Positions 300 through 38,708 of a DNA stretch of 64,000 nt are shown piece after piece. Both the position numbers and the translations under genes were made by a program. A model generated the notes under the pieces. It was not told where the DNA came from and ran no database searches. It worked only from the letters and a program-made list of their open reading frames with translations. The DNA lies in the IMG/VR virus record IMGVR_UViG_3300008111_000048, positions 1 to 64,000 of that record. One strand, written 5' to 3'. Each line of letters opens with the position of its first letter. Position 1 is the first letter of the stretch. The stretch comes from a virus.

Positions 300-360
300 C
301 AAAAAGTGGCACAAGATCGATTGAATTCCGACGATCCACGTGCTAACAGGGAATTATACC

Positions 361-5749: not shown

Positions 5750-5794
5750 ATTATAGGTCAGAAGGACGGCACCACGTCGTTCCGTAGACCAGTT
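5750..5794 (-). promoter_or_regulatory. Class-2 promoter (AACTGGTCTA box, N30, TATAAT)
   Basis: Minus strand: box AACTGGTCTA at 5785-5794, with 30 nt between its TGGTCT core (5786-5791) and TATAAT (5750-5755). There is no TTGACA at -35. The box lies inside the coding end of the upstream gene. The transcript would start about 20 nt before the ATG at 5724. Confidence 0.7.
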
Positions 5795-5961
5795 TGGGAA
5801 CTGTCCATCCGCTCCCAGACGCTGTAGAGTTTGTTATAAAGTGCAGGCACACTTCCATATTCCCGTGCAATTCTATTTTCCTCACGGAGATTCAATTCCT
5901 GCAGTGCAGATAGAATAATGCCCATTTCATGGACATTTAGTTGTACGTTCGTTTCGATCAT
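5758..5961 (-). CDS. Small helical hypothetical protein
   Basis: I start at ATG 5961 (MIETNVQLNVHEMGIILSAL) rather than at the in-frame start at 5976. It has 67 residues, is mostly helical, and ends DVVPSF. The end of the gene carries the promoter box for the downstream gene. Function unknown. Confidence 0.68.
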   Translation of the reverse strand: MIETNVQLNVHEMGIILSALQELNLREENRIAREYGSVPALYNKLYSVWERMDSSQTGLRNDVVPSF

Positions 5962-5966
5962 TGTTT

Positions 5967-6377
5967 TCAATCCCAACTAACATTTTGCAAAAGAAATCCT
6001 GGCATCACATAAGTCCAGGCACCATCATTATCTTGACCACCAACTTTATACTCCCACTTATATTCACGCTTGTTGTAATTATCCCACGTCATGTATCCTT
6101 TCTGTTTGTCAAATCGTCCTTTGATGGTGAGACGGAAACGATTCGAAAAAATATTACGAGTGCGAAGTGCTCCACCAACCTCACGGGTTTCTACAATTTT
6201 ACAGGTATCATAATGTGGATTGCCATTATTCTCCAACATGCAGGGAGTTTCGTATGCGAATGGACGTGGCAACCTAGGTGCAACTGGAGCAGAATTGTAT
6301 TTACTTTCAGTTGCAGATGGTGTCGCAAATGCTGGTGATGCCAATAGCAACGATGCGATTAGAAAAAACTTTTTCAT
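5967..6377 (-). CDS. Secreted small protein
   Basis: From ATG 6377 the protein reads MKKFFLIASLLLASPAFA, a textbook signal peptide with an AxA cleavage site near residue 18. The 118-residue mature part has two cysteines (PCMLEN, DTCKIV) about 13 residues apart, suggesting an exported, possibly disulfide-bonded protein. It overlaps the RlpA-like gene upstream by 4 nt, which suggests a joint role at the cell envelope; that link is inference. Confidence 0.72.
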   Translation of the reverse strand: MKKFFLIASLLLASPAFATPSATESKYNSAPVAPRLPRPFAYETPCMLENNGNPHYDTCKIVETREVGGALRTRNIFSNRFRLTIKGRFDKQKGYMTWDNYNKREYKWEYKVGGQDNDGAWTYVMPGFLLQNVSWD

Positions 6378-6688
6378 CCAACTACCCTCCAACATACGGT
6401 TGCGTTTCCTTGTTTTGTAGAAGCAATGTGAGCAAATGCAGCATAACTTAAATCAAGGTCAGCATGAGAATAAGGACCGCGATCATTGACTCTTACGATT
6501 ACCTGTTTGAGATTGTCTTGGTTTGTAACTCTAATTTTAGTTCCCATAGGTAAGTAAGGGTGAGCAGCAGTCCAACGATAAGTATCAAATCGTTCTCCAT
6601 TTGCAGTAGTTTGTCCGTGAAATCCGTCACCAATTCCATAGAATGTGGCAACTCCACAAGTAAGACCAGCAATCAGTGTTTCAATCAT
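6374..6688 (-). CDS. RlpA-like double-psi beta-barrel protein
   Basis: The 104-residue protein (start ATG 6688) matches the RlpA double-psi beta-barrel: GVATFYG near residues 12-18, the TANGERFD segment near 28-35, LPMGTKIRV near 46-54 and VNDRGPY with the conserved Asp near 67-73. RlpA proteins act on peptidoglycan in the bacterial envelope. The short N-terminus (MIETLIAGLTCG) is weakly hydrophobic with a cysteine, so export is possible but not clear. In a phage it may help lysis or envelope remodelling. Confidence 0.85.
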   Translation of the reverse strand: MIETLIAGLTCGVATFYGIGDGFHGQTTANGERFDTYRWTAAHPYLPMGTKIRVTNQDNLKQVIVRVNDRGPYSHADLDLSYAAFAHIASTKQGNATVCWRVVG

Positions 6689-6879
6689 TGTTTGACTTTC
6701 ATCTCCCAAACATCACGACTCAGAGATTGAACAGCAGAATTCACATTGCTGTCCAGAGAGTGAACTTTGTACTCAAGTTCACCAAGTTGACGATATAGGT
6801 TCAGGCACATGAGAGTATTGGCAGCAATACCCACAATGATTGACCAACCAACAACTTTCTCAAGACTCACATTATTCAC
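6685..6879 (-). CDS. Small membrane protein with coiled-coil tail
   Basis: A GTG start at 6879 gives 64 residues. A hydrophobic span at residues 9-26 (VVGWSIIVGIAANTLMCL) is followed by a heptad-like segment to the end, the layout of small spanin- or holin-like proteins, but no specific family is recognised. It sits between the RlpA-like gene and small genes and overlaps both neighbours by 4 nt. Confidence 0.65.
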   Translation of the reverse strand: MNNVSLEKVVGWSIIVGIAANTLMCLNLYRQLGELEYKVHSLDSNVNSAVQSLSRDVWEMKVKQ

Positions 6880-7040
6880 TCTGTCACCTCATCATAATCA
6901 ACGGCAAGTTCAAGATAATTGTAACCAATTACCTTACGACCTTCATGGGTAGATGTATTCACAACCACACCATCTTGGGTCAGTTTTTCAACACGACGAT
7001 TTGCCGCATTGTTCATTTTAATAGTCCAATAATAACTCAT
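6876..7040 (-). CDS. Small hypothetical protein (54 aa)
   Basis: ATG 7040 to TGA 6876, starting MSYYWTIKMNNAANRRVEK. A strong AGGAGGAATCTC ribosome-binding site sits directly upstream, inside the end of the preceding gene. The GTG of the next gene overlaps this stop. Function unknown. Confidence 0.72.
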   Translation of the reverse strand: MSYYWTIKMNNAANRRVEKLTQDGVVVNTSTHEGRKVIGYNYLELAVDYDEVTE

Positions 7041-7192
7041 GAGATTCCTCCTGTTTTGTTATATTCTATCATAGATCGACGTGCAGAGTAAGCCTCAAAT
7101 TCGGATGGAAATGATGCAATGGTCCGACCATTATCTGCCCAGTACAGATACCAACGTCTGGCAAAATGTTTGATGAGAATAGGTTTGTCCAT
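7037..7192 (-). CDS. Small hypothetical protein (51 aa)
   Basis: ATG 7192 to TGA 7037 encodes MDKPILIKHFARRWYLYWAD..., basic and aromatic-rich. Its last codons contain the ribosome-binding site of the next gene and its stop overlaps that ATG. Function unknown. Confidence 0.7.
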   Translation of the reverse strand: MDKPILIKHFARRWYLYWADNGRTIASFPSEFEAYSARRSMIEYNKTGGIS

Positions 7193-7350
7193 CATTCCTC
7201 GGGGTAAAGTTTCCAAGTATCGGGATAGATTCCCATCTCTTCACAGCGCACCTCATAGGCAATACGCTGTAAGCAAAGAAGATCCATGGATTCAACTGCT
7301 TTCATAATGGAGCGGCGAATCTGCTTGTCTTGAACTGTGTCGGCAATCAT
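7192..7350 (-). CDS. Small hypothetical protein (52 aa)
   Basis: ATG 7350 to TGA 7192, starting MIADTVQDKQIRRSIMKAVE; helical, two cysteines. Its stop shares a base with the next ATG (TGATG), and its start overlaps the upstream stop. Function unknown. Confidence 0.7.
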   Translation of the reverse strand: MIADTVQDKQIRRSIMKAVESMDLLCLQRIAYEVRCEEMGIYPDTWKLYPEE

Positions 7351-7538
7351 TTGATGTCACCTTCAGCGATCAGACCCATGATTTCACGAGCAGTAGCAGC
7401 AAAGTTGATGTGATCCTCCAGACCTTCATCGGAATAGACCTTGAACAGATCAGATTCCCTGTAGGTATCCATGATCAGAGCGCAGGCATCATACAGGGCA
7501 GCGATGTGATGTGCCTTGGACTGAAAGGAAAGTGCCAT
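7347..7538 (-). CDS. Small helical protein, first gene of a class-2 transcript
   Basis: A 63-residue helical protein (MALSFQSKAHHIAALYDAC...). It follows the promoter at 7564-7609. The leader carries GGTAATC and then a GGGGCGCCCC palindrome next to the ATG, nearly the same leader as the gene at 5724. Function unknown. Confidence 0.72.
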   Translation of the reverse strand: MALSFQSKAHHIAALYDACALIMDTYRESDLFKVYSDEGLEDHINFAATAREIMGLIAEGDIK

Positions 7539-7563
7539 GGGGGCGCCCCTCGATTACCTTTGT

Positions 7564-7609
7564 ATTATAGGGCAAAGGAGAGGGGGGTTCAACGACTCCT
7601 GTACCACTT
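7564..7609 (-). promoter_or_regulatory. Class-2 promoter (AAGTGGTACA box, N31, TATAAT)
   Basis: Minus strand: AAGTGGTACA at 7600-7609, then 31 nt between its TGGTAC core and TATAAT at 7564-7569. No -35 hexamer. Confidence 0.68.
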
Positions 7610-7611
7610 GT

Positions 7612-8514
7612 TCAACTGTCCACCTTCACGATCAGGATCTCATGAGATTCTTTAGTATTGCTCCCACCAGATACAATACGATTATCACCAATACGTGTCT
7701 CTCCTAATTGATAGGAATAGTGCCACTCTGGGAAATACTGATCAAAATCTTTGTAGTATTCACGGATCGTCTCACAATTGTTGTAAGACAGGATAAAACT
7801 GCCTTTATGGTTGTGCAACAGATCCCTCAGTGTTTCATGATCAAAACCAGTATGATGCACGTCAATATTGCAGTTGGGATACATTCCCTTCAGCATTTTG
7901 TTATCGGAATCCTTATCCAAATAGTATGGAGGATCCAGATAAAGAAGATCACCAGAATGTTCTGGGATTACATCAACAAACGATGCCTTTTCCACATGCA
8001 GATCTTTATTCTTGTAGGATCTGATGTTGTGGACCATCTTATCCCATTTGGTCTGACTTTCATAGATCTTACTCATCCAACCCAGATACATCGGTCCATA
8101 GGACAGATTATGATTGAAATAATAGTATGCTGCAGCAGTCAGATCATCCAATTGGATTGGATCACGCTTATAATAATCAGTGTGCCAATCTTTGAGCATG
8201 TCCTGAGTATACTGCCACTGCAGCAACATTTCCTTAATCTCAGCATACTTTTCCTTGGTAGGAGTCAACTCCTGAAGTTTATCTGCCAACTCATGTGGAG
8301 AAGACAGAAGAACATTCCAGAAGTTGACCAGGGCATCAAAGATGTCGAACCCATAAACAGGAACGCCAAGTTCAGATGCCCACTTTGATTCTAAACTACC
8401 TCCACCAACAAATGGTGAGATGATACGCTGGGGATATGGTAGTCTAGGAATATATTGGGTGATAAGTTTGTATGCCTTTGACTTACCACCAGCATAGCGG
8501 AGAGGTGTCTTCAT
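7612..8514 (-). CDS. D12-class N6-adenine DNA methyltransferase
   Basis: The 300-residue protein has the layout of Dam-type (MethyltransfD12) enzymes: LRYAGGKSK near residues 5-13, the SAM-binding FVGGGS at 35-40, and the catalytic DPPY at 194-197. It would methylate N6 of adenine in a short DNA target. It overlaps by 4 nt a gene with GIY-YIG-like motifs, an arrangement that suggests a restriction-modification pair or a guarded nuclease. A lone methylase protecting phage DNA from host restriction is the alternative. The target sequence cannot be read from the gene. Confidence 0.9.
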   Translation of the reverse strand: MKTPLRYAGGKSKAYKLITQYIPRLPYPQRIISPFVGGGSLESKWASELGVPVYGFDIFDALVNFWNVLLSSPHELADKLQELTPTKEKYAEIKEMLLQWQYTQDMLKDWHTDYYKRDPIQLDDLTAAAYYYFNHNLSYGPMYLGWMSKIYESQTKWDKMVHNIRSYKNKDLHVEKASFVDVIPEHSGDLLYLDPPYYLDKDSDNKMLKGMYPNCNIDVHHTGFDHETLRDLLHNHKGSFILSYNNCETIREYYKDFDQYFPEWHYSYQLGETRIGDNRIVSGGSNTKESHEILIVKVDS

Positions 8515-9077
8515 TTAGTCTTGCGATCGATTTTGTACTGCCCAAATGCTTCATGAATAATACTAGGAAGTGCTACACCAGTCTCTTGATAGTTCCACTT
8601 AGGATAGCAACCTTCAATAGCATTATACTGCATCAGACAATTTTCTTCAATACCCTTGGCACTCACAGGAACAACCATCTGCTCAGACTTAAAGAGACCA
8701 GGAACTTCAACAACAATCGGTTCCATGTAAATCATATAAACTTCTACCTTGTTTCCTTGATCCAGTTGCTCACGCATAAACCAATTGATAGCAAACCGAT
8801 TGATGCCAGGGTCATCTTGACCAGCATTCAAATAAAAACCCATACAACCTTGAATACCGCTCTTGGTAGAAGATTGACCAATCTTATAGATCTCTCCGTT
8901 GACACACAAAATATACACAAGAGAGACATGCTTGTTTTTCAACTTCTTAGGGAAGTTGCTGTCATAATTCAGAACAAGTTTAGTCTTGTAAAGCACATGC
9001 TTAGGACCAGAATAAGTATCAGTTCCGTGAACAATCTCACCGACACGAATTGCATTTGGAATGTCAGAAACGTTCAT
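8511..9077 (-). CDS. Candidate GIY-YIG-like nuclease next to the methylase
   Basis: In this 188-residue protein residues 53-67 read LVYILCVNGEIYKIG, which matches the two-strand core of the GIY-YIG fold (YIL ... YKIG) as seen in GIY-YIG enzymes and T5orf172-type proteins. A downstream EENCLMQYN segment could supply the conserved Glu and Asn. The usual catalytic Arg after YKIG is not evident, so activity is uncertain. It is the first gene of a class-2 transcript and overlaps the methylase by ATGA. It could be the restriction partner, or a regulator using the same fold. Confidence 0.5.
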   Translation of the reverse strand: MNVSDIPNAIRVGEIVHGTDTYSGPKHVLYKTKLVLNYDSNFPKKLKNKHVSLVYILCVNGEIYKIGQSSTKSGIQGCMGFYLNAGQDDPGINRFAINWFMREQLDQGNKVEVYMIYMEPIVVEVPGLFKSEQMVVPVSAKGIEENCLMQYNAIEGCYPKWNYQETGVALPSIIHEAFGQYKIDRKTK

Positions 9078-9099
9078 GTGTTTGACTGATTACCTTGTA

Positions 9100-9144
9100 A
9101 TTATACTGCCTGCATCAGGCGGTTGGGGAAATGGTGTACCACTT
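9100..9144 (-). promoter_or_regulatory. Class-2 promoter (AAGTGGTACA box, N30, TATAAT)
   Basis: Minus strand: AAGTGGTACA at 9135-9144, 30 nt between its core and TATAAT at 9100-9105. The spacer contains the short palindrome GCCTGATGCAGGC. GGTAATC follows in the leader. Confidence 0.7.
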
Positions 9145-9577
9145 CTGGAACTGGCACATTCAATTCATCATACAAATACTCCAGATATAGGGTTTCTTCT
9201 TGCTCCCGTGCCTCTATTTCGTGTGCCTGATGCCAATAGTCCACATCTTCCATACATTCTTTACCATAATACATTTTTCCGCTTCGGAGTCGCAGTGAAC
9301 CTACTACCCACTGCCGCAGGTGCGTCAGTTCATGTAAAAGAGTTTGTATATACAACTCTTGGTCCATATGGGTATTCAGTTCAATCAGGAAGTGACGGGG
9401 GCGATAAGTTTCACCCACAACATCACAATACCCATAAACACACTCACGATTCAGACCACGATGAACAATATCCACCGTGATCTTGTGGCGTGGGAAGAAC
9501 CTATTCAGAAACCAAGAGGTAACATCCTCACAGATCCGCTTGCGATAACCATATCCAGAATGCGTGATGTAAGACAT
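9101..9577 (-). CDS. SprT-like zinc metalloprotease
   Basis: From ATG 9577 the 158-residue protein carries LLHELTHLRQW: the HExxH zinc motif with His82 and His86 and catalytic Glu83. A second acidic/histidine motif near the C-terminus (WHQAHEIEAREQE) probably supplies the third ligand, as in SprT/Spartan-type proteases. Cellular members degrade DNA-protein crosslinks; a phage role is not established. The frame can be extended to a TTG at 9598. The coding end carries the promoter of the next gene. Confidence 0.8.
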   Translation of the reverse strand: MSYITHSGYGYRKRICEDVTSWFLNRFFPRHKITVDIVHRGLNRECVYGYCDVVGETYRPRHFLIELNTHMDQELYIQTLLHELTHLRQWVVGSLRLRSGKMYYGKECMEDVDYWHQAHEIEAREQEETLYLEYLYDELNVPVPEVVHHFPNRLMQAV

Positions 9578-9639
9578 TGACCCCAGTGCAAAAACCAAAT
9601 GAACGATGAAACAAACAGGAGTTTTTCTTTAGCAGTCAT
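9505..9639 (-). CDS. Possible tiny membrane peptide overlapping the protease gene
   Basis: ATG 9639 lies 5 nt past the stop of the gene upstream and opens a 44-residue frame starting MTAKEKLLFVSSFIWFLHW, which has a short hydrophobic stretch. More than half of the frame overlaps the protease gene. The start position fits the operon, but the overlap weakens the case. Confidence 0.3.
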   Translation of the reverse strand: MTAKEKLLFVSSFIWFLHWGQCLTSRILDMVIASGSVRMLPLGF

Positions 9640-9641
9640 AC

Positions 9642-10097
9642 TCAACGAGCGTACAAATAAGAACCTGCCCAGTCAGCATTCTCAAGCAACCATTCACGCT
9701 GCTCAATGATACGCAGATCGTAGCGAACACCTTTGGCAGGAGACTTCCAAGATGCAGACTTGTAAACCTGACCAGTCTTCTTATCCACAAAAGCATGAAC
9801 AGAGCGGGAACCATTAGCAACCATAATGATTTTGTGATACTTACGACCCGTTTCAGGGTAGAACTCATAATCACAAATACCTTCTTTCAGTTTAGCAACA
9901 GATGCCTTGTGATAGGCAATACCAGTTTCAGTATTACCTTCCAGACGCTTCAGAGAACTCTGATGGGACTTGATGCTATATTCAATGTAGTTCTGGCGCA
10001 GTGCCTCACAGAGAGCATAGGTGTGCCCCAGAACTGCCTCTGCGATGTTCTTCCGTGCCTCTGCTTGGGCGGAATACTCAGCGAAGGTGGTGGTCAT
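9642..10097 (-). CDS. Conserved cyanophage protein
   Basis: I start at ATG 10097 (MTTTFAEYSAQAEARKN), just downstream of the class-2 promoter. The N-terminal half of the 151 residues is helical. The C-terminal half includes VHAFVDKKTGQVYKSASWK and PAKGVRYDLR, a pattern common in phage proteins of unknown function. No catalytic motif seen. Confidence 0.75.
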   Translation of the reverse strand: MTTTFAEYSAQAEARKNIAEAVLGHTYALCEALRQNYIEYSIKSHQSSLKRLEGNTETGIAYHKASVAKLKEGICDYEFYPETGRKYHKIIMVANGSRSVHAFVDKKTGQVYKSASWKSPAKGVRYDLRIIEQREWLLENADWAGSYLYAR

Positions 10098-10118
10098 TGC
10101 TTGGTTGCGTATGTGCTT

Positions 10119-10163
10119 ATTATAGGGCACTCAGAGGCGCCCAGAGCGGTCAGTATGCCAGTT
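10119..10163 (-). promoter_or_regulatory. Class-2 promoter (AACTGGCATA box, N30, TATAAT)
   Basis: Minus strand: AACTGGCATA at 10154-10163, overlapping the last codons of the upstream gene; 30 nt to TATAAT at 10119-10124. The leader carries CATACGCAAC. Confidence 0.72.
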
Positions 10164-10275
10164 CAGGATCTGGCACCCAGTAGTCGTCATTCTCCAAATA
10201 ACCCATCCAATCTTGGGGGTCTGTATCATACAGGGCAATTTCCCGCAGTTCATCAATCAGTTCAGACAGGTCCAT
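10150..10275 (-). CDS. Tiny acidic protein (41 aa)
   Basis: ATG 10275 to TGA 10150, starting MDLSELIDELREIALYDTD and ending DPELAY; strongly acidic. It has its own class-2 promoter (10301-10344), and the promoter box for the next transcript is built into its last codons. Function unknown. Confidence 0.7.
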   Translation of the reverse strand: MDLSELIDELREIALYDTDPQDWMGYLENDDYWVPDPELAY

Positions 10276-10300
10276 GAGAGAAGCGTTCAACTACTTGGAT

Positions 10301-10344
10301 ATTATAGCAGAAAACCCGCCGAGTGGGCGGGTCTTGTGCCAGTT
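10301..10344 (-). promoter_or_regulatory. Class-2 promoter with nested terminator hairpin
   Basis: Minus strand: AACTGGCACA at 10335-10344, 29 nt to TATAAT at 10301-10306. The spacer holds ACCCGCC-CACTC-GGCGGGT followed by TTTTC, a terminator-like hairpin that would stop the upstream transcript just before this one starts. Confidence 0.78.
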
Positions 10345-10345
10345 T

Positions 10346-10756
10346 TTAGACTGCCAATGCACCAGAGGGAATTTCTACACCTTCCAAGTAAGAATCGTGC
10401 CAATCGCAAGTATCATAGCACAACCAACCTTCAGATTGAGTGTAGACATAAGCAAACTCTTCACCATTCTGAAGATACTCTGCCAAGTTTGCATCAAGGC
10501 GAGGAGGAGAATCTTCACCACGTTGAGAGTAGTATTGGGGACCATAAACACCCTTCACACCAGAACCATCCCAACGCTCATCTGTCCAGGCACAGGACAT
10601 ATCACCACCATCAATCAGTTCAGCGGCAAGAGATTTGGTATTGTAGTGAGTCTTCAAGATACGACCCAACCACTCAGGATAACCATCCCAATGGGAATAA
10701 GCAGAGAGAATAGAACCATCAAGGAGTTCGATACCAATCCGAGAGCGGGTTGCCAT
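10346..10756 (-). CDS. Conserved phage protein
   Basis: The 136-residue protein begins MATRSRIGIELLDGSILSAY followed by SHWDGYPEWLG, a signature I know from proteins in many unrelated phages and some bacteria; the function has not been established. First gene of a class-2 transcript with a GGTAATC leader. Confidence 0.78.
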   Translation of the reverse strand: MATRSRIGIELLDGSILSAYSHWDGYPEWLGRILKTHYNTKSLAAELIDGGDMSCAWTDERWDGSGVKGVYGPQYYSQRGEDSPPRLDANLAEYLQNGEEFAYVYTQSEGWLCYDTCDWHDSYLEGVEIPSGALAV

Positions 10757-10781
10757 GAGGCGTTTCGTTGATTACCTCCAT

Positions 10782-10828
10782 ATTATAATGGGTCTCCCAG
10801 CGAACCAGAAGACCCAGTGTGCCAGTTT
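10782..10828 (-). promoter_or_regulatory. Class-2 promoter with nested TTCG hairpin
   Basis: Minus strand: AACTGGCACA at 10818-10827, 31 nt to TATAAT at 10782-10787. Between them GGGTCTTCTGG-TTCG-CTGGGAGACCC forms a long stem with a TTCG tetraloop. GGTAATC follows in the leader. Confidence 0.75.
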
Positions 10829-10839
10829 ACAAACTGGTC

Positions 10840-11052
10840 TCAGTCATCATACACTCTACACTCTAATGCATCAGGATTGGCATCACAATAAAGTTCCAGT
10901 GGTGTAGGATCGTGAGAGTCTTCAGGATGGTGTTCTTTATATGTTTTAAGTGCTTCTAATTCTTCTTCAGTATGTCTTCTCGCCTGTGGAGAAATAGTTG
11001 GGTCACTCAAAAGGTCCTCGTCCTTCTGAATATGTTGGTCGATGTTATCCAT
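10840..11052 (-). CDS. cp12: CP12, Calvin-cycle regulator (auxiliary metabolic gene)
   Basis: The 70-residue protein ends PLELYCDANPDALECRVYDD, the CP12 C-terminal loop with its cysteine pair (Cys56 and Cys65, eight residues between). Host CP12 bridges GAPDH and phosphoribulokinase and shuts down the Calvin cycle. Cyanophage CP12 is thought to divert carbon flux to the pentose phosphate pathway for nucleotide synthesis. The N-terminal half is a charged helix; the N-terminal cysteine pair of plant CP12 is absent, as is usual in phage versions. An AATAAATA late-type promoter word lies 20 nt upstream. Confidence 0.88.
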   Translation of the reverse strand: MDNIDQHIQKDEDLLSDPTISPQARRHTEEELEALKTYKEHHPEDSHDPTPLELYCDANPDALECRVYDD

Positions 11053-11072
11053 AGTTTTGTATCATGATGATA

Positions 11073-11080
11073 TATTTATT
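11073..11080 (-). promoter_or_regulatory. Possible late promoter AATAAATA
   Basis: AATAAATA on the minus strand 20 nt upstream of cp12. It matches the late-promoter word seen upstream of structural genes here, but the region is AT-rich, so it may be chance. Confidence 0.35.
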
Positions 11081-11083
11081 TTT

Positions 11084-11290
11084 TTATTCACTCAAAGAAC
11101 TACCACGCCAGTTCTTTGGAGTGGGTGGATCACACTTCCCTTCCAGACTTTTGACCATTAATTGAGCAAATTTCTCCATTTTTTCTGCAGAAACAGATGC
11201 TGGACGATAGGTAATTGCCTCTTTTAGGGCAACAAGTTCGTTCCATTCTTCAGTTGTGAGGTCAGCCGTGCTGGTTTTGGGGAGTGACAT
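11084..11290 (-). CDS. Small conserved cyanophage protein
   Basis: I start at ATG 11290 (MSLPKTSTADLTTEEWNELV), because the longer frame to 11323 has an unlikely N-terminus. 68 residues, helical, ending in a proline-rich tail. The TTEEWN pattern is familiar from other cyanophages; function unknown. It lies between the oxygenase cluster and cp12. Confidence 0.7.
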   Translation of the reverse strand: MSLPKTSTADLTTEEWNELVALKEAITYRPASVSAEKMEKFAQLMVKSLEGKCDPPTPKNWRGSSLSE

Positions 11291-11379
11291 AGAGTTTCCT
11301 GCGATGTAGTTCAATGTTAGCATTCCAATATAATACTATCTAGAAACTTAATGTTTTCTTTGGGATCATGTTACACTGC

Positions 11380-13342: not shown

Positions 13343-13369
13343 ACTTAAATCTCCACTTGTAGTATTATA

Positions 13370-19221: not shown

Positions 19222-19223
19222 TC

Positions 19224-20688: not shown

Positions 20689-20689
20689 T

Positions 20690-21512: not shown

Positions 21513-21513
21513 C

Positions 21514-22985: not shown

Positions 22986-23182
22986 AATACCTCCCAATCA
23001 CATTCCCAGTTACAATCGTTGCTTACATTAACCCAGAAGAAGTATTTCTGGTTCTCTGATGCGAGAAACATCATACCATCTCCCTTATCTTGCTCTACAA
23101 TACAGATGGGGTTGTTGCCCATCATATTAGCAAGACGATTCTTAGCCTTGCTACTCTTTGGTTTTACGGTCACTCTTCGCAT
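22982..23182 (-). CDS. Small hypothetical protein with basic N-terminus
   Basis: A 66-residue protein starting MRRVTVKPKSSKAKNRLANM; the basic start could contact nucleic acid. The second half is aromatic (KYFFWVNVSND). Function unknown. Confidence 0.66.
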   Translation of the reverse strand: MRRVTVKPKSSKAKNRLANMMGNNPICIVEQDKGDGMMFLASENQKYFFWVNVSNDCNWECDWEVL

Positions 23183-23183
23183 T

Positions 23184-23648
23184 TCAATCTTTTACCCCAG
23201 TTTCAGGACTACCATCGGGCCAAACATCATCAAGTGTAGTATCTACTTCAAATCCTTCATCTTCCTTATCAGTCAGGACAGTTCCCATAGGACCTTTTTT
23301 CAGTCGTGCCCACTCTTCTTCTGCTTGCTGCATATCATCAAACTTCTTCCTCAGGTCTTCACCCAAAGTCAGTTCAAACTCATCAGCAACTTTACGCATA
23401 TCTTCTTCTCTTCGGTCCTCACCAAATGCGACACCACAAGCACCTCTCATAATGTTGATCTCATCGTGACCCATCGCACGGGCAACAGTTGCAAAGAAGC
23501 GAAAAAGTTGATGAACATTAAGATCTTCAGCAGGAACCTGAAAAGTATAATGCTCTTCAGGCAACACTGAATCATCAAAACCACTGCTATAATGAGTGGA
23601 AGTCCACTCAGTATCAAACTGAACTTTAAGGGTTGCCTTGTAAGTCAT
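23184..23648 (-). CDS. Conserved cyanophage protein
   Basis: A 154-residue protein starting MTYKATLKVQFDTEWTSTHY. It has a beta-rich start, a central helical segment, and an acidic Pro-Gly tail. It is the first gene of a class-2 transcript: promoter at 23670-23714 and a CATACGCAAC leader. Function unknown. Confidence 0.74.
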   Translation of the reverse strand: MTYKATLKVQFDTEWTSTHYSSGFDDSVLPEEHYTFQVPAEDLNVHQLFRFFATVARAMGHDEINIMRGACGVAFGEDRREEDMRKVADEFELTLGEDLRKKFDDMQQAEEEWARLKKGPMGTVLTDKEDEGFEVDTTLDDVWPDGSPETGVKD

Positions 23649-23669
23649 TGGTCTGTTGCGTATGAAAGT

Positions 23670-23714
23670 ATTATAATGGAAATTCCACCCATTCTATGAG
23701 TGAGTGTGCCAGTT
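23670..23714 (-). promoter_or_regulatory. Class-2 promoter (AACTGGCACA box, N30, TATAAT)
   Basis: Minus strand: AACTGGCACA at 23705-23714, 30 nt to TATAAT at 23670-23675. The spacer has no strong hairpin here, so the spacing is kept without one. CATACGCAAC follows in the leader. Confidence 0.75.
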
Positions 23715-23716
23715 CC

Positions 23717-24064
23717 TCAAGTGTCCTCATCATCTTCATCATCAAACAAATCTACATCAACACCATCAGTAAGTTCTTTTATTCTATCAAAAAAGTCTTC
23801 ATCAAGTGGATATACTTTCTCTTCACCTCTATCAATACGATCACACATTTCCATCAGATACTCAAGAAATTCTTTGGGATAAGTTTCATCTAGGTTGATA
23901 CTCGTCCAGAACCATTGATAACACTCTTGGTAGGGGTCATCATCATCCAAGAGAGCATATCCCTCATAGTTTCCACTGATAAGGTCTCTCCACATCTTAA
24001 AGTTATTCCACATCTCACGCCATCCAGTTTGGAAGCAGTGACCGAAGTAATACTCAATCCAGTT
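23717..24064 (-). CDS. Acidic hypothetical protein
   Basis: Started at ATG 24064 (MNWIEYYFGHCFQTGWREMW). 115 residues, rich in Trp and Tyr at the N-terminus, with a long acidic tail (DLFDDEDDEDT). Possibly a DNA mimic, but that is speculation. The gene ends 3 nt before the next promoter box. Confidence 0.68.
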   Translation of the reverse strand, partial: NWIEYYFGHCFQTGWREMWNNFKMWRDLISGNYEGYALLDDDDPYQECYQWFWTSINLDETYPKEFLEYLMEMCDRIDRGEEKVYPLDEDFFDRIKELTDGVDVDLFDDEDDEDT

Positions 24065-24335
24065 CATTTTTTTGGACATAGAACAATTCATCCCGCCAGT
24101 TACGACCTGCAATATCAAAACTAAATCCTAACTTACCAAGAGTGAATAGAAATGAGAATAATCTACCATATCCCATAGAGATTTGTAGATAAGGCCATTC
24201 TATCCAGTTACCATACTCACCAAAGTCAATTGCGACTTGAAGAAGTGCATATCGTTCGGTTAGAAAGAGTGAAAAGTAGAACTCTTTACCGTAGTCTTCT
24301 CTGACTCCCCACTTTGCGACTTGAAATAGTTTCAT
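24054..24335 (-). CDS. Small aromatic protein (paralogue of the gene at 22320)
   Basis: A 93-residue protein starting MKLFQVAKWGVREDYGKEFY. Similar in layout to the protein at 22320-22598. Overlaps its neighbours by 4-11 nt. Function unknown. Confidence 0.68.
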   Translation of the reverse strand: MKLFQVAKWGVREDYGKEFYFSLFLTERYALLQVAIDFGEYGNWIEWPYLQISMGYGRLFSFLFTLGKLGFSFDIAGRNWRDELFYVQKNELD

Positions 24336-24526
24336 TCTTCCAATTCCTGTGCTAGTTGTAGCATATCATTTTTATCAAGAACAATCAAGTCATTTTGAGC
24401 AGTATAAAACTGAATGTTTTCAGCAGCAATACGCAAAACAGAAGCAATTAACTTCTCTTCGGTATCAGCACCAGCATTTCGTGCTTCCCATATTTGATTC
24501 ATTAATGATTGAGATCGTTCAGTCAA
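24332..24526 (-). CDS. Small helical protein (paralogue of the gene at 20497)
   Basis: A 64-residue protein starting MTERSQSLMNQIWEARNAGA, with LIASVLRIAAENI in the middle. Resembles the protein at 20497-20688. Function unknown. Confidence 0.66.
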   Translation of the reverse strand: MTERSQSLMNQIWEARNAGADTEEKLIASVLRIAAENIQFYTAQNDLIVLDKNDMLQLAQELEE

Positions 24527-24723
24527 TGTACTTTCCTCTTTTTTAAGTAATGATGGTTTTCAGAATCAAAGATTGTCCATTTTGCTATTTTAAGACACAT
24601 TAGCACAGTTTGGTGCTCTCTCTGATACAAGTCCCAATCTTCTTTAAGTTTTGCAGCGTGTCTTCTACGATAGGCACAGCACCAAACATTTTTATAAATT
24701 TGTGCTTTTTCGGTTAAAGTCAT
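24523..24723 (-). CDS. Small basic protein
   Basis: A 66-residue basic protein starting MTLTEKAQIYKNVWCCAYRR. Linked by 4-nt overlaps to a paralogue gene and to the oxygenase gene upstream. Function unknown. Confidence 0.65.
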   Translation of the reverse strand: MTLTEKAQIYKNVWCCAYRRRHAAKLKEDWDLYQREHQTVLMCLKIAKWTIFDSENHHYLKKRKVH

Positions 24724-25430
24724 CCCAAACTTCTCAAAAAATCTTTGTCAATTTCCTGATCAAAACAGAGGCAGTATCTTGGTGTAGATAATTCATTTTC
24801 TACTTTATGGCGAATTCTACCCCAAAAGAACATGTGTTGATTGTTTACGAACAATCTTTTCTCTGCTTTTTCTCTATTGTTACCAAACATTAGATAACAT
24901 TCTTTACCTTCTTCCTGACGAACATCAAGTCCCCAGAGACCACGAATAATTGCTAGATTATCACGTTCTGGATCTGGATCAAGATGCCAACCAATACCTT
25001 TACCAGGACCAACCATACTAATACCAAATCTTCTCTTAATTCCAGCCTCTCTCATTGTTGATGTGAGAATAGGAAGTAATTCAGAGTTTTCTCTGTGATA
25101 TCCAATTTTTTCTTCTTTAACAAAAATTGGATCTCCAAAGTTTTTGCCAATAATTGTGGGTGCTATTTTAACAAATGAGTCCCATTCATCATCAGTGATT
25201 AGTTTTGCACTAAAGGGATCTCTACACTCCATAAAGATCGGAGCAATTTGCCAACCAGCATAAGCAATTGCAGTATGACCAGAATACCCAGTATCATATC
25301 CCCAGTTACACCAATAAATCTTATCGAAATTGTCAAGAAATTCTTTTTGAATCTCTTCAAATCTTTCCTCAACAAGTTTAAGTTTTGGATTTAACTCCTC
25401 AAGAGTAAAGAAACGATCTATTTTATTCAT
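24720..25430 (-). CDS. Asp/Asn hydroxylase-like 2OG-Fe(II) oxygenase
   Basis: In this 236-residue protein a MVGPGKGIGWHLDPDPERDN segment gives His-x-Asp. It is followed by a strand-rich core (RGLWGLDV, KECYLMFG) and a distal histidine in WGRIRHKVEN. This matches phage Asp/Asn hydroxylase-type oxygenases, and the layout is shared with the next gene upstream (LDWHCDKD ... THRVEN). Substrate unknown. Confidence 0.75.
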   Translation of the reverse strand: MNKIDRFFTLEELNPKLKLVEERFEEIQKEFLDNFDKIYWCNWGYDTGYSGHTAIAYAGWQIAPIFMECRDPFSAKLITDDEWDSFVKIAPTIIGKNFGDPIFVKEEKIGYHRENSELLPILTSTMREAGIKRRFGISMVGPGKGIGWHLDPDPERDNLAIIRGLWGLDVRQEEGKECYLMFGNNREKAEKRLFVNNQHMFFWGRIRHKVENELSTPRYCLCFDQEIDKDFLRSLG

Positions 25431-26089
25431 AGCATACTTCTAAAAAATACATTTGGTTTATTATTAATGTGTGCAAGACTTTTAGAGGCAAACACATCCA
25501 TTGCTATCACTGTTCTTGGTTGAGACATCATATTCTCAACACGATGAGTAGTATTTGAGTCAAAAGTATAAAACTTATTGTTCTCAAACAATTGAGTTTC
25601 TACATTTCCAGATTCATCTTTCATTTGAAAGATCGAATATTTATCTTCTTCTACTGGAACATCAATTCCCCACAAAACACGATAGGTATTCAATCCTCCA
25701 CCACCATAATCCTTATCACAATGCCAATCTAATGAAGCTCCTGGATGTAATACGTTGATTCCCGCAACTAATACTGCTTTAATGGAAGAAAGTGTTTGAC
25801 ATAATATAGGAAGGTACATTGCATTGCATGGATGAAATACTCCATGGTAACTCAATGCTCCCATATGCCATCCAATATCACTATTGGTTTGCTTGGCATC
25901 CAAATAACTATTGAATTGAATTGGAAATCCTCTTTTATTTTGTGTAATATATTCCTTTTGTTGATCTGTAAAATCCCTAATTTCTAGAGATTCTCGATTT
26001 GTGACAAACTCATCGTGAATTGAATCAAAATTGTCGGATAATATCTGCAATTCTGGTAGAATCTCTTTATAGTCTAAGAAGAGAGACAT
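25427..26089 (-). CDS. Asp/Asn hydroxylase-like 2OG-Fe(II) oxygenase
   Basis: A 220-residue protein. The LHPGASLDWHCDKDYGGGG segment supplies His-x-Asp, VLWGIDVPV is a core strand and the distal histidine lies in SNTTHRVENMM; an Arg in QPRTVIAMDV fits the 2-oxoglutarate site. It is a diverged paralogue of the next gene downstream, with which it overlaps by 4 nt. Substrate unknown. Confidence 0.77.
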   Translation of the reverse strand: MSLFLDYKEILPELQILSDNFDSIHDEFVTNRESLEIRDFTDQQKEYITQNKRGFPIQFNSYLDAKQTNSDIGWHMGALSYHGVFHPCNAMYLPILCQTLSSIKAVLVAGINVLHPGASLDWHCDKDYGGGGLNTYRVLWGIDVPVEEDKYSIFQMKDESGNVETQLFENNKFYTFDSNTTHRVENMMSQPRTVIAMDVFASKSLAHINNKPNVFFRSML

Positions 26090-26090
26090 C

Positions 26091-26603
26091 TTACAACCAA
26101 TTAAAGTTTATATTTGCTCTATATTTAGAATCAGAAGTTGTACTAGAATTGTGCTCGTCATGGGCATCAAATAAAATCAATCTATTTGCAACACTATCAA
26201 CTTTAGTGCCATCAGACATCCGTGTGAATCCGTCACAAGTATTCAAAGAAAATATTGCTGCTTTATGTGAAAAATCGTAATCAGAATGTTTAGTATGTTC
26301 TTTTATATTTTCAGTATTGGGATATAGATTTGCTTTAATTCTTAACCAAGATCTTAATGGATTTTCTTTATCAAGTTTTGAAGCAAAAATTTGATTTAAA
26401 AATTGAAAATGTCTGCTATTAGGAACGTTAGAAATATAAAAAACATGTACAAAATAGGTTGACCATATTTCTGATTCTGCTTTTACATGTGTCACACCAT
26501 CACTGAAGAACCATTCAAATCCTTCTTCATTATCAAGTATCAAATTAGAAATCTGTTTAAACTCATTCTTATCTAAAAAATTATCAATAACTTTATAACT
26601 CAT
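26091..26603 (-). CDS. Prolyl-4-hydroxylase-like 2OG-Fe(II) oxygenase
   Basis: A 170-residue protein starting MSYKVIDNFLDKNEFKQISN, a common N-terminus for phage prolyl-hydroxylase-type oxygenases. HTKHSDYDFSH gives the His-x-Asp pair; FDAHDEHNSSTT carries the distal histidine, and KYRANINFNW holds a basic residue for 2-oxoglutarate. It is the first of three consecutive oxygenase genes, all on one transcript. Confidence 0.8.
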   Translation of the reverse strand: MSYKVIDNFLDKNEFKQISNLILDNEEGFEWFFSDGVTHVKAESEIWSTYFVHVFYISNVPNSRHFQFLNQIFASKLDKENPLRSWLRIKANLYPNTENIKEHTKHSDYDFSHKAAIFSLNTCDGFTRMSDGTKVDSVANRLILFDAHDEHNSSTTSDSKYRANINFNWL

Positions 26604-26797
26604 ACTGATTTCAATCCATTTAGAACTTCTTTAAACTTTTCGGCACGACTTTGATGCTCTGCAGCATTCTGCCCAAGCACATCCACAATATCTCCCAGAA
26701 TCACATCCGCAGGAGCATCGGTATCAAAGTATTGTTGGATTGCTTCGGCAAGATATCGCCGCCTGGTCCACTCTACGCTGTAGGGTTTGTAGTCCAT
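26600..26797 (-). CDS. Small helical protein, first gene of a sigma70-type transcript
   Basis: Started at ATG 26797 (MDYKPYSVEWTRRRYLAEAI). The longer frame to 26848 would reach across the promoter, so it is unlikely. 65 residues, helical. The strong promoter at 26820-26848 would drive this gene and the three oxygenases downstream. Function unknown. Confidence 0.72.
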   Translation of the reverse strand: MDYKPYSVEWTRRRYLAEAIQQYFDTDAPADVILGDIVDVLGQNAAEHQSRAEKFKEVLNGLKSV

Positions 26798-26819
26798 AAT
26801 GAAAGAGTTATATATGGGT

Positions 26820-26848
26820 ATTATAGGGTATCTATCCCTGTTCGTCAA
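26820..26848 (-). promoter_or_regulatory. Sigma70-type promoter TTGACG-N17-TATAAT
   Basis: Minus strand: TTGACG at 26843-26848 and TATAAT at 26820-26825, spaced 17 nt. It lies in the coding end of the upstream gene. Probably recognised by host RNA polymerase early in infection. Confidence 0.82.
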
Positions 26849-27053
26849 GTCCTAAACATTTCTCAAACTTATCTCTCATCTCATTAATCTTGACCTGATG
26901 CTGAAATTCCATAATGTGGTCCTTTATTTCCTTCTCTTCATCAGTCAGTTCCAAACGATATTTGAGTTTAACATCAACAAGACGTACCATTTCCATATAG
27001 AACTCGGTGCCTTTATGAATAAACTCGTCGTATGTCAATCTCTGGTCCTCCAA
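26832..27053 (-). CDS. Small helical protein
   Basis: A 73-residue protein starting MEDQRLTYDEFIHKGTEFYM; highly charged, one or two long helices. Overlaps the upstream gene by 19 nt. Its end contains the sigma70 promoter of the next transcript. Function unknown. Confidence 0.7.
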   Translation of the reverse strand: MEDQRLTYDEFIHKGTEFYMEMVRLVDVKLKYRLELTDEEKEIKDHIMEFQHQVKINEMRDKFEKCLGLDEQG

Positions 27054-27358
27054 TCAGTTTCGTCTTCATCACGTTTAAACCAATCATGTAAGTCATCTAC
27101 ACTATCAAAACCGCGACGACCAAATCGTTCATGACCTAAACCACCAATATCCAACTGATTCATAAAATCATCTAAGTCACCCTCAACCATATCAGGGTTT
27201 TCTGCTCTTCTTCTTGCCTGACGAAGCATTGTACCAGCAGAGCGGTTTGCCTTGGCAAGTTTCTCTGCCCAAATCATATCTTCAAGACTGACTTCTTCGT
27301 GTAGAACGATCTTTTCACAGATTGCTTCCAGTCTCAATCTATATTGTGTGGATAACAT
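27035..27358 (-). CDS. Conserved cyanophage protein
   Basis: A 107-residue protein starting MLSTQYRLRLEAICEKIVLH. Helical first half with AEKLAKANRSAGTMLRQARR, then an acidic Gly-rich second half. The pattern is common in cyanomyoviruses; function unknown. An AATAAATA word lies 20 nt upstream. Confidence 0.74.
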   Translation of the reverse strand: MLSTQYRLRLEAICEKIVLHEEVSLEDMIWAEKLAKANRSAGTMLRQARRRAENPDMVEGDLDDFMNQLDIGGLGHERFGRRGFDSVDDLHDWFKRDEDETDWRTRD

Positions 27359-27377
27359 AAGTCTTTCCAGATATAGT

Positions 27378-27614
27378 TTATTTATTTTTAGATTCTAATT
27401 CTTTCATCAACTCTTTGGCAAGTTGATTTGAGCGTCTCCACATTAAATACTTGACAATCGGATTGCGTGGATTATTCTTTATCCACCAGATTTGTCTTAC
27501 TATCTTATTTTTTACAATATCAAAAATATACACAAAAGCATCAGCAACATTTCTGTCGCTGATGATTACATAAGCAATGATAGCAAGTAAAGCAAACCAG
27601 GCGTAGTAAGTCAT
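27378..27614 (-). CDS. Small membrane protein
   Basis: A 78-residue protein with an N-terminal hydrophobic span (YYAWFALLAIIAYVIISD), then a basic cytoplasmic tail. Overlaps the small gene upstream by ATGA. An AATAAATA word (27379-27386) at its end may be a late promoter for the next gene. Function unknown. Confidence 0.7.
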   Translation of the reverse strand: MTYYAWFALLAIIAYVIISDRNVADAFVYIFDIVKNKIVRQIWWIKNNPRNPIVKYLMWRRSNQLAKELMKELESKNK

Positions 27615-27781
27615 CGTCTTAGAATTTTTAGATATTCTAGCACATGTTCCCGAACTGCCATGAGTTCATTGTAACATTTTTGATTGTGAGCACACTGACG
27701 AAGTTCGTGGTCTGGTTTGTGTACACTTTCAATAAACAAATCCAGTCCTCGGTTCCATTTAACGTCTTGTGCTTCATCCAT
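27611..27781 (-). CDS. Small hypothetical protein (56 aa)
   Basis: ATG 27781 to TGA 27611, starting MDEAQDVKWNRGLDLFIESV. Two cysteines and a helical basic tail. Its stop overlaps the ATG of the membrane protein. Function unknown. Confidence 0.72.
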   Translation of the reverse strand: MDEAQDVKWNRGLDLFIESVHKPDHELRQCAHNQKCYNELMAVREHVLEYLKILRR

Positions 27782-27804
27782 AATGTTCAATGTAATTGTA
27801 CTAT

Positions 27805-28059
27805 TTAACTAAAAAATTGATCGATACTTGTAGTCTTTTTCTTTGATGCATTGACTTGCTTCAAGATGTAAGACTTTGCCGATGAATAATTGTTAGCGGT
27901 GTGAACTTGCTGCCCGTTATGAATGATAATGAATTTTTTACCAGTCCAGGGGACAGCAGCCCACATTCCGTCTTTAGTCACATAACCTTCTGGATCTCCT
28001 GGTTTAGGATCAAGGACACCAGGACGAGGAACAAATGGTTTGAGAAAGTTTTCGCTCAT
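27805..28059 (-). CDS. Conserved cyanophage protein
   Basis: An 84-residue protein starting MSENFLKPFVPRPGVLDPKP with GKKFIIIHNGQQVHTANNYS later. Common near the helicase in cyanomyoviruses, function unknown. Its start overlaps the upstream stop as ATGA. Confidence 0.75.
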   Translation of the reverse strand: MSENFLKPFVPRPGVLDPKPGDPEGYVTKDGMWAAVPWTGKKFIIIHNGQQVHTANNYSSAKSYILKQVNASKKKTTSIDQFFS

Positions 28060-28199
28060 CCGAATACTGCAGTGACACCAACAACTTTAGCAGTAGGATT
28101 ACGTGCTAGAGCAGTACGACGGGCATCTTCATAGTCCCGTGCTTCAACAATTTCATCAAAAGTGCGACCAGCGACGTAGAGTTGGACTTTGCAGCGCAT
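28056..28199 (-). CDS. Tiny conserved cyanophage protein (47 aa)
   Basis: ATG 28199 to TGA 28056, starting MRCKVQLYVAGRTFDEIVEA and ending VVGVTAVFG. I recognise this small protein from other cyanomyoviruses; the middle (ARDYEDARRTAL) is a charged helix. AAGGAGG lies 12-18 nt upstream of the ATG. TATAAT at 28226-28231 probably starts the transcript. Function unknown. Confidence 0.8.
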   Translation of the reverse strand: MRCKVQLYVAGRTFDEIVEARDYEDARRTALARNPTAKVVGVTAVFG

Positions 28200-28225
28200 T
28201 AGGGGGTTCCTCCTTGTGTGTGAGT

Positions 28226-28254
28226 ATTATAGCAGAAAAGTCAGCGCCTGACAA
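28226..28254 (-). promoter_or_regulatory. -10 element with terminator hairpin at helicase gene end
   Basis: Minus strand: the hairpin GTCAG-GCG-CTGAC (28240-28252) is followed by TTTTC and then TATAAT (28226-28231). It stops the helicase transcript and starts the next. Neither TTGACA nor a clear AACTGG box is present at the right distance. Confidence 0.55.
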
Positions 28255-29422
28255 TGCTGATGGCAGGTTGACCCTGTTGGAATACGGTGTCTACGACCGC
28301 CTGAACGCTCTTGGCGGTGCTGATGCCCACCTTGTCATAGACAGGCACACAGACCAGTCCAAACGTCTTCTGGGCGCCCCCCAGGCGGATCACACGCCCG
28401 ATGCTCTGGGAGATACCGATGTAGTCCATGTTCCGCATGAACAACACTGCCTCCAAACCAGACACATTGATACCCTCAGACAGAATGCTGTGGTGCAGAA
28501 CCACAAACTTCTTAGAGGAGTCTTTGCCCCAGGCATTGAGAGTATCAAAGAACACCTCACGATTAACCTTCTGACCATCAATCACGGCACCAGTCTTGGA
28601 AGTAATATACATCCAAGAATATCCACGCTCCTTGAGGTCAGAGCAGAAGTCAGACTGAGAGACCAGATTGACGATCTGTTTGGTAGAACGAGCACAGATC
28701 AGAATCTTATCCAAACCATTATCATCAATCGTCTCCAGCAGATTAGCAGAGTCACGATCAGCAATCATCTGCTTGTCCTGAACCATCTCAAGTTGCTTCA
28801 CGACAACTTTAGGGGGCAATATGTATCCTTGATCCACCAGTTCGGGAGCAGGGACATTACAGATCACTTGACCATAAACCTCGGGCATGTTCATCCCAGG
28901 TTTGGAAATCGTAGCAGAATGCTTAGGAGTAGCAGTGAAGAAATAACAGCGGTCAGCAACAGAAGAGAAGTGCTCCGTAGCAGGGAAAAAGTTACGTTGG
29001 ACCGAGTTGTGTGCCTCATCAAAATAAATGGTATCGACATGAATATCTGCCTGCTGCAGACGTTGCAGGGAGTTGTACGTGGTGAAGATAAGTTTATGAC
29101 CTTGAGTTGCTTCTACCCAAGTGCGGATTACATTAGGACGAGTGCTGCTGAAGTGGTGCGTCTCACCGCTGTGAACGTGAAGAACTTGTGCGTTGGTGAT
29201 AAACTCAAGAAACTCACTAGATAACTGCTCTGCCAGCAAGATGCGCGGGCAGCACACTACAATGGTCTGAGGAGTATCTTTCAGAAACTGACGGATGGCA
29301 TCGAAGATCATCGTAGGAGTCTTACCAGCACCCGTTGGCATCACCAGTTGACCCAGTTGATGCTGTTCCATAGCATCAAGACCACGTTGCTGGTGAGGAC
29401 GAAGTTCGAACACAGGTCTCAT
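28241..29422 (-). CDS. SF2 DEAD/DEAH-type helicase
   Basis: This 393-residue protein has the superfamily-2 motifs: LRPHQQRGLDAM (Q-like motif), Walker A MPTGAGKT (residues 28-35), TTYNSLQR, Walker B DEAH, TATP, and motif VI QSIGRVIR. It should unwind or remodel nucleic acid with ATP. It is shorter than T4 UvsW (about 500) and lacks the UvsW N-terminal domain, but it may do a similar job in recombination. First gene of a class-2 transcript, with a CATACGC leader; its end overlaps a terminator hairpin. Confidence 0.9.
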   Translation of the reverse strand: MRPVFELRPHQQRGLDAMEQHQLGQLVMPTGAGKTPTMIFDAIRQFLKDTPQTIVVCCPRILLAEQLSSEFLEFITNAQVLHVHSGETHHFSSTRPNVIRTWVEATQGHKLIFTTYNSLQRLQQADIHVDTIYFDEAHNSVQRNFFPATEHFSSVADRCYFFTATPKHSATISKPGMNMPEVYGQVICNVPAPELVDQGYILPPKVVVKQLEMVQDKQMIADRDSANLLETIDDNGLDKILICARSTKQIVNLVSQSDFCSDLKERGYSWMYITSKTGAVIDGQKVNREVFFDTLNAWGKDSSKKFVVLHHSILSEGINVSGLEAVLFMRNMDYIGISQSIGRVIRLGGAQKTFGLVCVPVYDKVGISTAKSVQAVVDTVFQQGQPAISIVRR

Positions 29423-29435
29423 CGCGTATGAAACT

Positions 29436-29479
29436 ATTATAGCAGAAAGGGGTCCCCGAAGGAACCCCCTGTGCCAGTT
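29436..29479 (-). promoter_or_regulatory. Class-2 promoter with nested TTCG hairpin
   Basis: Minus strand: AACTGGCACA at 29470-29479, 29 nt to TATAAT at 29436-29441. Between them GGGGTTCC-TTCG-GGGACCCC is followed by TTTCT, a terminator-like hairpin for the fibre transcript. Confidence 0.78.
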
Positions 29480-29491
29480 ATGTAAGTGTCC

Positions 29492-38495: not shown

Positions 38496-38509
38496 TATTT
38501 TAAGATTTA

Positions 38510-38704: not shown

Positions 38705-38708
38705 AAGG

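Follow-up and report, generated by a model that had tools for sequence, protein, structure and literature searches.

A two-armed operator held 28–30 nucleotides before the −10 hexamer defines a promoter class of T4-like cyanophages that may engage a host GntR-type activator

A 64,000-nucleotide stretch of viral DNA (positions 1 to 64,000 of the 65,972-base IMG/VR record IMGVR_UViG_3300008111_000048, hereafter the window) carries on its minus strand a series of promoters in which an inverted repeat is held at a nearly constant distance upstream of a TATAAT −10 hexamer. The class is genuine and occurs widely among T4-like cyanophages, the group in which the window virus is placed by DNA similarity and protein matches: of 28 phage records with DNA similarity to the window, 27 bear the name Synechococcus phage or cyanophage, and the freshwater phages S-SRM01 and DSL-LC02 are among its closer relatives. 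The same two-armed site, at about the same distance, precedes a host regulatory RNA, and the virus thus probably borrows a host activator rather than encoding its own. We consider it likely, with some room for doubt, that these are sigma-70-type promoters of T4-like cyanophages co-opting a host GntR activator of the PlmA type, and that they are most likely early.

Architecture of the promoter element

An earlier reading of the bare sequence (the original prediction) had listed eight sites sharing a box, AASTGGNNYA, and a downstream TATAAT. All eight are present, all on the minus strand, with the boxes starting at 29479, 23714, 10827, 10344, 10163, 9144, 7609 and 5794 and the TATAAT following after 28, 29, 30, 28, 29, 29, 30 and 29 nucleotides (nt), respectively; these exclusive counts equal the predicted spacing of 29–31 nt, the two ways of counting differing by one nt. 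The combination AASTGGNNYA-N28-30-TATAAT occurs eight times in the window compared with a maximum of one and a mean of 0.005 in 200 dinucleotide shuffles, and all other gaps from 0 to 79 nt combined yield three matches. In viral contigs the pattern AACTGGCACA-N24-34-TATAAT is found at no fewer than 120 loci, with the matches listed falling at 28 nt (15), 29 nt (77) and 30 nt (33) and no other spacing in the 24–34 nt range exceeding 4. Positions that played no part in the selection reveal, among the same listed matches, a second arm, GMCASTT, four nt before the box (C 97%, A 91%). The predicted box is thus real although it is not the whole element, which is an imperfect inverted repeat, KGMCASTT-N4-AASTGKCACA, with the box as its right arm.

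The dyad also leads back to the −10 hexamer when nothing is fixed downstream. A dyad-only scan of viral contigs gives at least 120 matches; among those listed, 67 of 111 new sites carry an exact TATAAT at 29 or 30 nt and 90 of 111 a −10 hexamer with one mismatch or fewer at 27–31 nt, with 21 of 111 having neither an exact nor a near −10. A matrix of the whole repeat, built by iteration and run on 2,635,425 bases (2.64 megabases, Mb) of fetched viral loci, returns 730 sites and none on the reversed sequence. Its spacings concentrate at 28 (78), 29 (435) and 30 nt (283), no other value between 15 and 45 rising above 24. The logo of 728 of these sites (two with short flanks were dropped) consists of KGMCASTT-N4-AASTGKCACA, 28–30 nt, TATAATA, five nt, R (97–99%) and T (75–81%). 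The matrix training loci came from searches with patterns holding one or both arms, and the C/G balance at the S positions therefore leans to the typed letters. The conserved R, seven nt past the −10, would be the expected +1. From the box-to-−10 spacing, simple arithmetic centres the repeat near −53, with an extent of about −42 to −65, instead of the centre near −45 that had been proposed for the box.

The lack of a −35 hexamer, also part of the original prediction, holds for the window sites, where no more than 4/6 positions ever match, but not for the class as a whole: a −35-like hexamer (at least 5/6) lies at 16–18 nt in 90 of 702 distinct relatives compared with about 1% in shuffled spacers. 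The class is therefore described not as promoters that never have a −35 but as sigma-70-type promoters whose upstream operator is strong. The 702 distinct spacers fold at a mean of −6.9 kcal/mol, compared with −4.4 for shuffles, −1.7 for downstream and −2.4 for upstream segments. Stems of at least 5 base pairs (bp) are present in 403/702 spacers against 255/702 when shuffled, and T runs (four or more) toward the −10 in 139/702 against 67. Many of the spacers thus resemble a terminator for the gene upstream. By raw count, the centre of the dyad contains a stop-codon word at 527 of 728 sites.

Distribution of the dyad promoters among phages

Each genome was scanned with the matrix at a minimum score of 18 and a minimum of 1 for the −10 part, with the reversed sequence as control and a few symmetric dyads counted once per strand. 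The sites number 27 in S-SRM01 (reversed 1), 20 in both S-CRM01 and P-SSM2, 17 in S-PM2, 13 in both P-TIM40 and S-RSM4, 11 in both P-HM2 and Syn9, 10 in P-SSM4, 7 in DSL-LC02 and 2 in S-SM2 (NC_015279), with 0 on the reversed sequence of each of these last ten genomes. The class read from the window thus extends to its relatives, at 2–27 sites per reference T4-like cyanophage (n = 11). T4, the Pelagibacter phage HTVC008M and the podovirus Syn5 have 0 matrix sites each (reversed 0). A tight fixed dyad pattern is positive in 9 of 22 records, all of them T4-like cyanophages (control 0); it is too strict at one position and misses the carriers Syn9, P-HM2 and S-SM2. A looser word search gives 10 matches in P-SSM2, 7 in P-HM2 (reversed 1), 1 in Syn9 and 0 in S-SM2 and T4. 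Ma-LMM01, P-SSP7, P-SS2, S-TIM5, KVP40, S-CBS1 and RB49 have no match to the fixed patterns, the only ones run on them and of which the tight one misses three carriers. Among the fetched viral loci 209/313 hold a site, and 206 of these 209 match a reference cyanophage open reading frame (ORF; E 1e-15) compared with 55 of the 104 site-less loci. A scan with the left arm and TATAAT was set aside as mostly chance, a matrix site being present at 19 of 90 new loci.

The dyad promoters are closely followed by genes. An ATG ORF of at least 40 codons lies within 160 nt of 808 of 893 sites and, in 640 of these 808 first ORFs, the ATG is positioned 20–39 nt past the start of the −10, giving the picture of a promoter with a very short leader. 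The DUF7717 gene is the first gene behind a dyad promoter in 28 cases, and DUF7717 is found in 9 of 10 other reference cyanophages (blastp with the Syn9 homologue as query). In Syn9, sites precede gp150 (annotated peptidase) and gp153 (annotated CobS), labels that follow the record annotation and a look at the sequence, and gp150-like and gp153-like genes recur as first genes with 18 members each. Eight of the 11 Syn9 sites lie amid small genes at 44.8–53.0 kilobases, mostly without a named function; the hits at 49087 and 49092 represent a single dyad read on both strands. This location would fit early timing at least as well as middle timing, and the assignment to a middle-type class is not supported.

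Resemblance to the host yfr2 promoters

The symmetric dyad TGTGNCASTTN4AASTGNCACA is present at four sites in 3 of 388 cyanobacterial genomes (control 0). Two of the four (G158 and G343, contig 113) are followed 29 nt on by a −10-like hexamer (TTTAAT and TATAAA) and directly then by the Rfam RNA Cyano-1 (RF01701, Yfr2 family), at 43.2 and 55.8 bits for a cut-off of 41. A consensus dyad of Desmonostoc has TACATT at 29 nt, without an Rfam match. RF01701 itself gives 103 matches in 48 of 49 chosen cyanobacterial genomes, each searched genome that matches holding 1–5 copies of Yfr2. Of the upstream regions of yfr2, 72 were examined, which reduce to 71 distinct ones. Among these 71, 33 reach a score of 5 or more with the phage-trained box compared with 3 when reversed, and for 31 of these 33 the end of the box falls 35–40 nt before the RNA. 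Similarly, the word TGTG[AC]CA[GCA][TC] begins 58–66 nt before the Yfr2 RNA in 42/71 regions and in none when reversed, and the same word is carried by 180 of the 730 phage sites, beginning 64–66 nt before the putative +1. Host and phage promoters thus share the arm word and place it about equally far from the transcript start. In contrast, the host right arm is degenerate and the host holds 1–5 copies, whereas the phages hold 10–27 sites in 9 of 11 genomes (S-SM2 has 2 and DSL-LC02 has 7). Four yfr2 upstream regions from small cyanobacterial genomes (L536, L514, L531 and L511) display two arms back to back, AACTGNCACA-TGTGACARTW, unlike the dyad arrangement.

The passages of PMC6778093 that treat yfr2 describe a GntR regulator, PMM1637, common to all cyanobacteria, which binds the promoter regions of yfr2 homologues with the element CGRE1, is named as the mediator of Yfr2 induction, and whose element is found nowhere else in the MED4 genome. 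An excerpt of a review (PMC7344720) presents PlmA as a GntR regulator that all cyanobacteria have and no other organisms do, which contacts PII-PipX and regulates Yfr2, and ties it to PII-PipX, thioredoxin and photosystem balance. The GntR domain PF00392 is found in 0 of 14 phage records, with 12 of 14 control genomes positive. HTVC008M, which belongs to the same family as these phages by record taxonomy and has a Pelagibacter host, has no matrix site, in agreement with what a cyanobacterial host factor predicts, as far as one phage goes.

Proposed mechanism and alternative explanations

In the proposed mechanism the two-armed operator near −53, which resembles the operator of the host yfr2 small RNA promoters, would be bound by a resident dimeric GntR activator of the host (PMM1637 in Prochlorococcus MED4, PlmA elsewhere). 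The bound activator would recruit host RNA polymerase to the −10 located 28–30 bp downstream, its contact replacing or supplementing that of the −35. The spacer would often be terminator-like for the upstream gene and, because it doubles in this way, the promoters could be packed between short genes. Binding of PMM1637/PlmA to the phage sites and activation there are both presumed from the likeness to yfr2, and the genes behind the dyad promoters are probably early, a timing read from sequence. To the broader statement we lean only slightly: that T4-like cyanophages run dispersed promoters that reproduce the operator and the geometry of a single host small RNA promoter, tying takeover to GntR/PlmA, with the upstream terminator folded into the 29 bp that separate operator from −10. 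If true, phage takeover would be linked to host nitrogen and light signalling. Because the matrix recognises these promoters directly in raw sequence, the regulon of uncultured phages can be read, and with a host protein named the matter comes down to straightforward binding and reporter assays.

Several observations weigh against host co-option. The consensus dyad has three hits in prokaryote genomes (genome_contigs), which by estimate chance could yield, and the bipartite pattern is unenriched in the 388 cyanobacterial genomes (14 matches compared with 26 for the reversed-pattern control, spacers of 25–29 nt only). The other two symmetric host dyads have no Cyano-1/Yfr2 RNA in the loci searched. 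Among the yfr2 regions, 38/71 score below 5 and 29/71 are without the word, and the host right arms are far more degenerate than those of the phages. Three regions (L474, L476 and L542) come from genomes picked for holding dyads and, when these are excluded, the counts become 30/68 for the matrix and 40/68 for the word; the regions are moreover not independent since many come from related species. On the phage side, S-SM2 is nearly without the promoter class, neither of its two sites lying before its DUF7717 gene, and in the looser word search HTVC008M has one match (reversed 0) where S-SM2 and T4 have none. That CGRE1 and the phage dyad are the same motif is a presumption. Finally, an activator made by the phage would be just as compatible with the anchored spacing.

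Such an activator, a dimeric DNA-binding protein encoded by the phage and made early, with the dyad as its operator in middle promoters, is the most substantial alternative, which we nevertheless hold to be improbable. It would account for the abundance of the consensus dyad in viral contigs and its near absence from prokaryote genomes, and a conserved helix-turn-helix-looking protein, phrog_507, occurs in 10 of the 11 reference cyanophages, while T4, HTVC008M and Syn5 are without it. However, no phrog_507 was found in S-CRM01 with its 20 sites, and yet S-SM2, with only 2, has the protein; its presence does not track the sites and it was dismissed as the activator. In the window the phrog_507 protein (27038-27358, minus strand) has 107 residues and a helix-turn-helix-like stretch recognised by eye from its sequence. 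DUF7717 (Syn9 gp69) was dismissed likewise, because the helices and strands of its predicted model (pLDDT, the predicted local distance difference test, 92) are not helix-turn-helix-like; the confident model comprises two long helices and a small sheet, and a comparison with PDB gives no fold match at E 0.001 (best 0.36). In the same comparison by gene presence, Sm-like, DUF3110, MazG and other proteins common to the site-bearing phages carry no DNA-binding name. A phage early protein as the binder, which the original prediction had expected, is not supported: the host yfr2 promoters carry the arm word too, in nearly the same position, GntR domains are missing from the phage records searched and a GntR protein binds yfr2 promoters (excerpt of PMC6778093). 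Furthermore, the relevant section of a 2010 review (PMC2984593) describes T4-like cyanophages as being without motA, asi, alt and modA and calls their control of early and middle transcription unclear.

The dyad might instead be a repressor operator, through which GntR or another protein would keep phage genes silent until displaced. GntR regulators are often repressors, and we still regard this as quite unlikely: the dyad is placed upstream of the usual core contacts of RNA polymerase, the poor or missing −35 of the window sites makes an activator the more needed, and PMM1637 is called a mediator of induction in the excerpt of PMC6778093. Least credible of all is an element acting as RNA, in which box and spacer, transcribed with the upstream gene, would fold for termination or antitermination and not for initiation. 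The better folding of the spacers, their additional stems and their T runs would agree with it. In contrast, the arms do not keep Watson-Crick pairing, which at the S/S position is observed at 0.29 and is thus rarer than the 0.43 expected under independence; on this anti-pairing an RNA hairpin formed by the dyad was rejected, and the dyad is read as DNA. The fixed distance from dyad to −10 and the short distance to the ATG also speak against an RNA element.

Relation to known phage promoter systems

The middle promoters of T4 that depend on MotA combine a −10 with an upstream activator box, a single box near −30 and about 12 nt from the −10. The present promoters likewise combine a −10 with an upstream activator box but differ in geometry, the dyad lying 28–30 nt from the −10 with its centre at about −53. 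The original prediction was correct in seeing here a true promoter class with near-constant spacing and a geometry distinct from that of T4 MotA. For the same phage group, a novel element reportedly controls the early genes in Syn9 (Doron et al. 2016). The phages concerned there, Syn9 and P-TIM40, both carry the present sites (11 and 13); the dyad, the spacing law, the spacer hairpin and the host match come from the present analysis. Doron 2016 and Lambrecht 2018, which have an author in common, may already contain parts of the picture and may discuss the link to the host, and a literature search that did not cover these two papers returned no paper linking the phage sites to a host GntR protein. 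The promoter-terminator cassettes of T4-like phages named PeSL in the relevant passage of PMC4503421 set a stem-loop terminator beside an early promoter, whereas here the predicted stem-loop lies inside the promoter, between operator and −10.

Dyad promoters and downstream genes of the window

With the whole-repeat score cut at 14, the matrix finds exactly nine sites on the minus strand of the window, every one with a −10 at 28–30 nt, and eight places on the plus strand, seven of which are the same near-palindromes read backwards. The eighth is a further dyad at 429–438 (matrix score 19.1), without a scored −10 at 24–34 nt. Of the eight spacers measured, those of promoters 1 to 8, five fold at −9 kcal/mol or below and the weakest at −3.7. 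All promoters and genes described below are on the minus strand.

Promoter 1 (29436..29493) consists of a dyad at 29493-29470, a 28-nt spacer with a GC hairpin folding at −15.3 kcal/mol, and TATAAT at 29441-29436. It precedes a superfamily 2 helicase (28241..29422; PF04851, E 5.2e-19; PF00270, E 1.6e-13), whose ATG is located 19 nt past the start of the −10 and whose inclusion in the promoter class is supported. Promoter 2 (23670..23728; dyad 23728-23705, 29 nt, TATAAT 23675-23670) has the highest score in the window, 46.6, and precedes a 154-residue ORF (23184..23648) without a Pfam match. When first genes are grouped by single linkage, this ORF falls in the largest cluster, with 43 members. 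In promoter 3 (10782..10841) the dyad at 10841-10818 is followed by a 30-nt spacer with a hairpin (−17.9 kcal/mol), TATAAT at 10787-10782 and a 136-residue ORF (10346..10756), also without a Pfam match. Promoter 4 (10301..10358; dyad 10358-10335, TATAAT 10306-10301) has a 28-nt spacer with a hairpin and a T-run (−14.8 kcal/mol) and is followed by a 41-residue ORF, the 3′ end of which is overlapped by the dyad of promoter 5 (10119..10177; dyad 10177-10154, 29 nt, TATAAT 10124-10119, fold −9.5 kcal/mol). Behind promoter 5 lies the DUF7717 (PF24835) gene (9642..10097; E 8.6e-46).

Promoter 6 (9100..9158; dyad 9158-9135, 29 nt, TATAAT 9105-9100, fold −7.0 kcal/mol) is followed first by a 188-residue ORF (8511-9077) and second by a D12-class adenine methyltransferase gene (7612-8514; PF02086, E 1.9e-24). 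The methyltransferase half of the methyltransferase/GIY-YIG pair proposed for the regulon therefore stands, and the GIY-YIG half is unconfirmed, the 188-residue ORF being without a Pfam match. Promoter 7 (7564..7623; dyad 7623-7600, 30 nt, TATAAT 7569-7564), the weakest to fold, precedes a 63-residue ORF (7347-7538), and promoter 8 (5750..5808; dyad 5808-5785, 29 nt, TATAAT 5755-5750, fold −9.3 kcal/mol) an 87-residue ORF (5461-5724). The weaker ninth site suspected at 254 is genuine: promoter 9 (254..313) displays a symmetric dyad at 313-290, with the box AACTGTCACA at 299-290, and TATTCT as its −10 at 259-254 after 30 nt. Downstream of it a match to a DSL-LC02 ORF covers 230-84, the window edge being too near for the first-ORF script.

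Words of the CTCGACGAG type are present at 300-820, near the left end of the window, and S-SRM01 has similar text at 88189, adjoining a dyad. Two further minus-strand TATAAT words, at 39089 and 62418, look promoter-like by eye, with a TTGACA-like −35 and without a dyad, which suggests a second, host-like promoter class; the site at 39089 is followed by GGGGTAATCAACGG, resembling the text behind some dyad promoters. Three transfer RNA genes, Leu-TAA, Met-CAT and Ile-TAT, are clustered at 38509-38796, two of them being returned at the Rfam gathering score.

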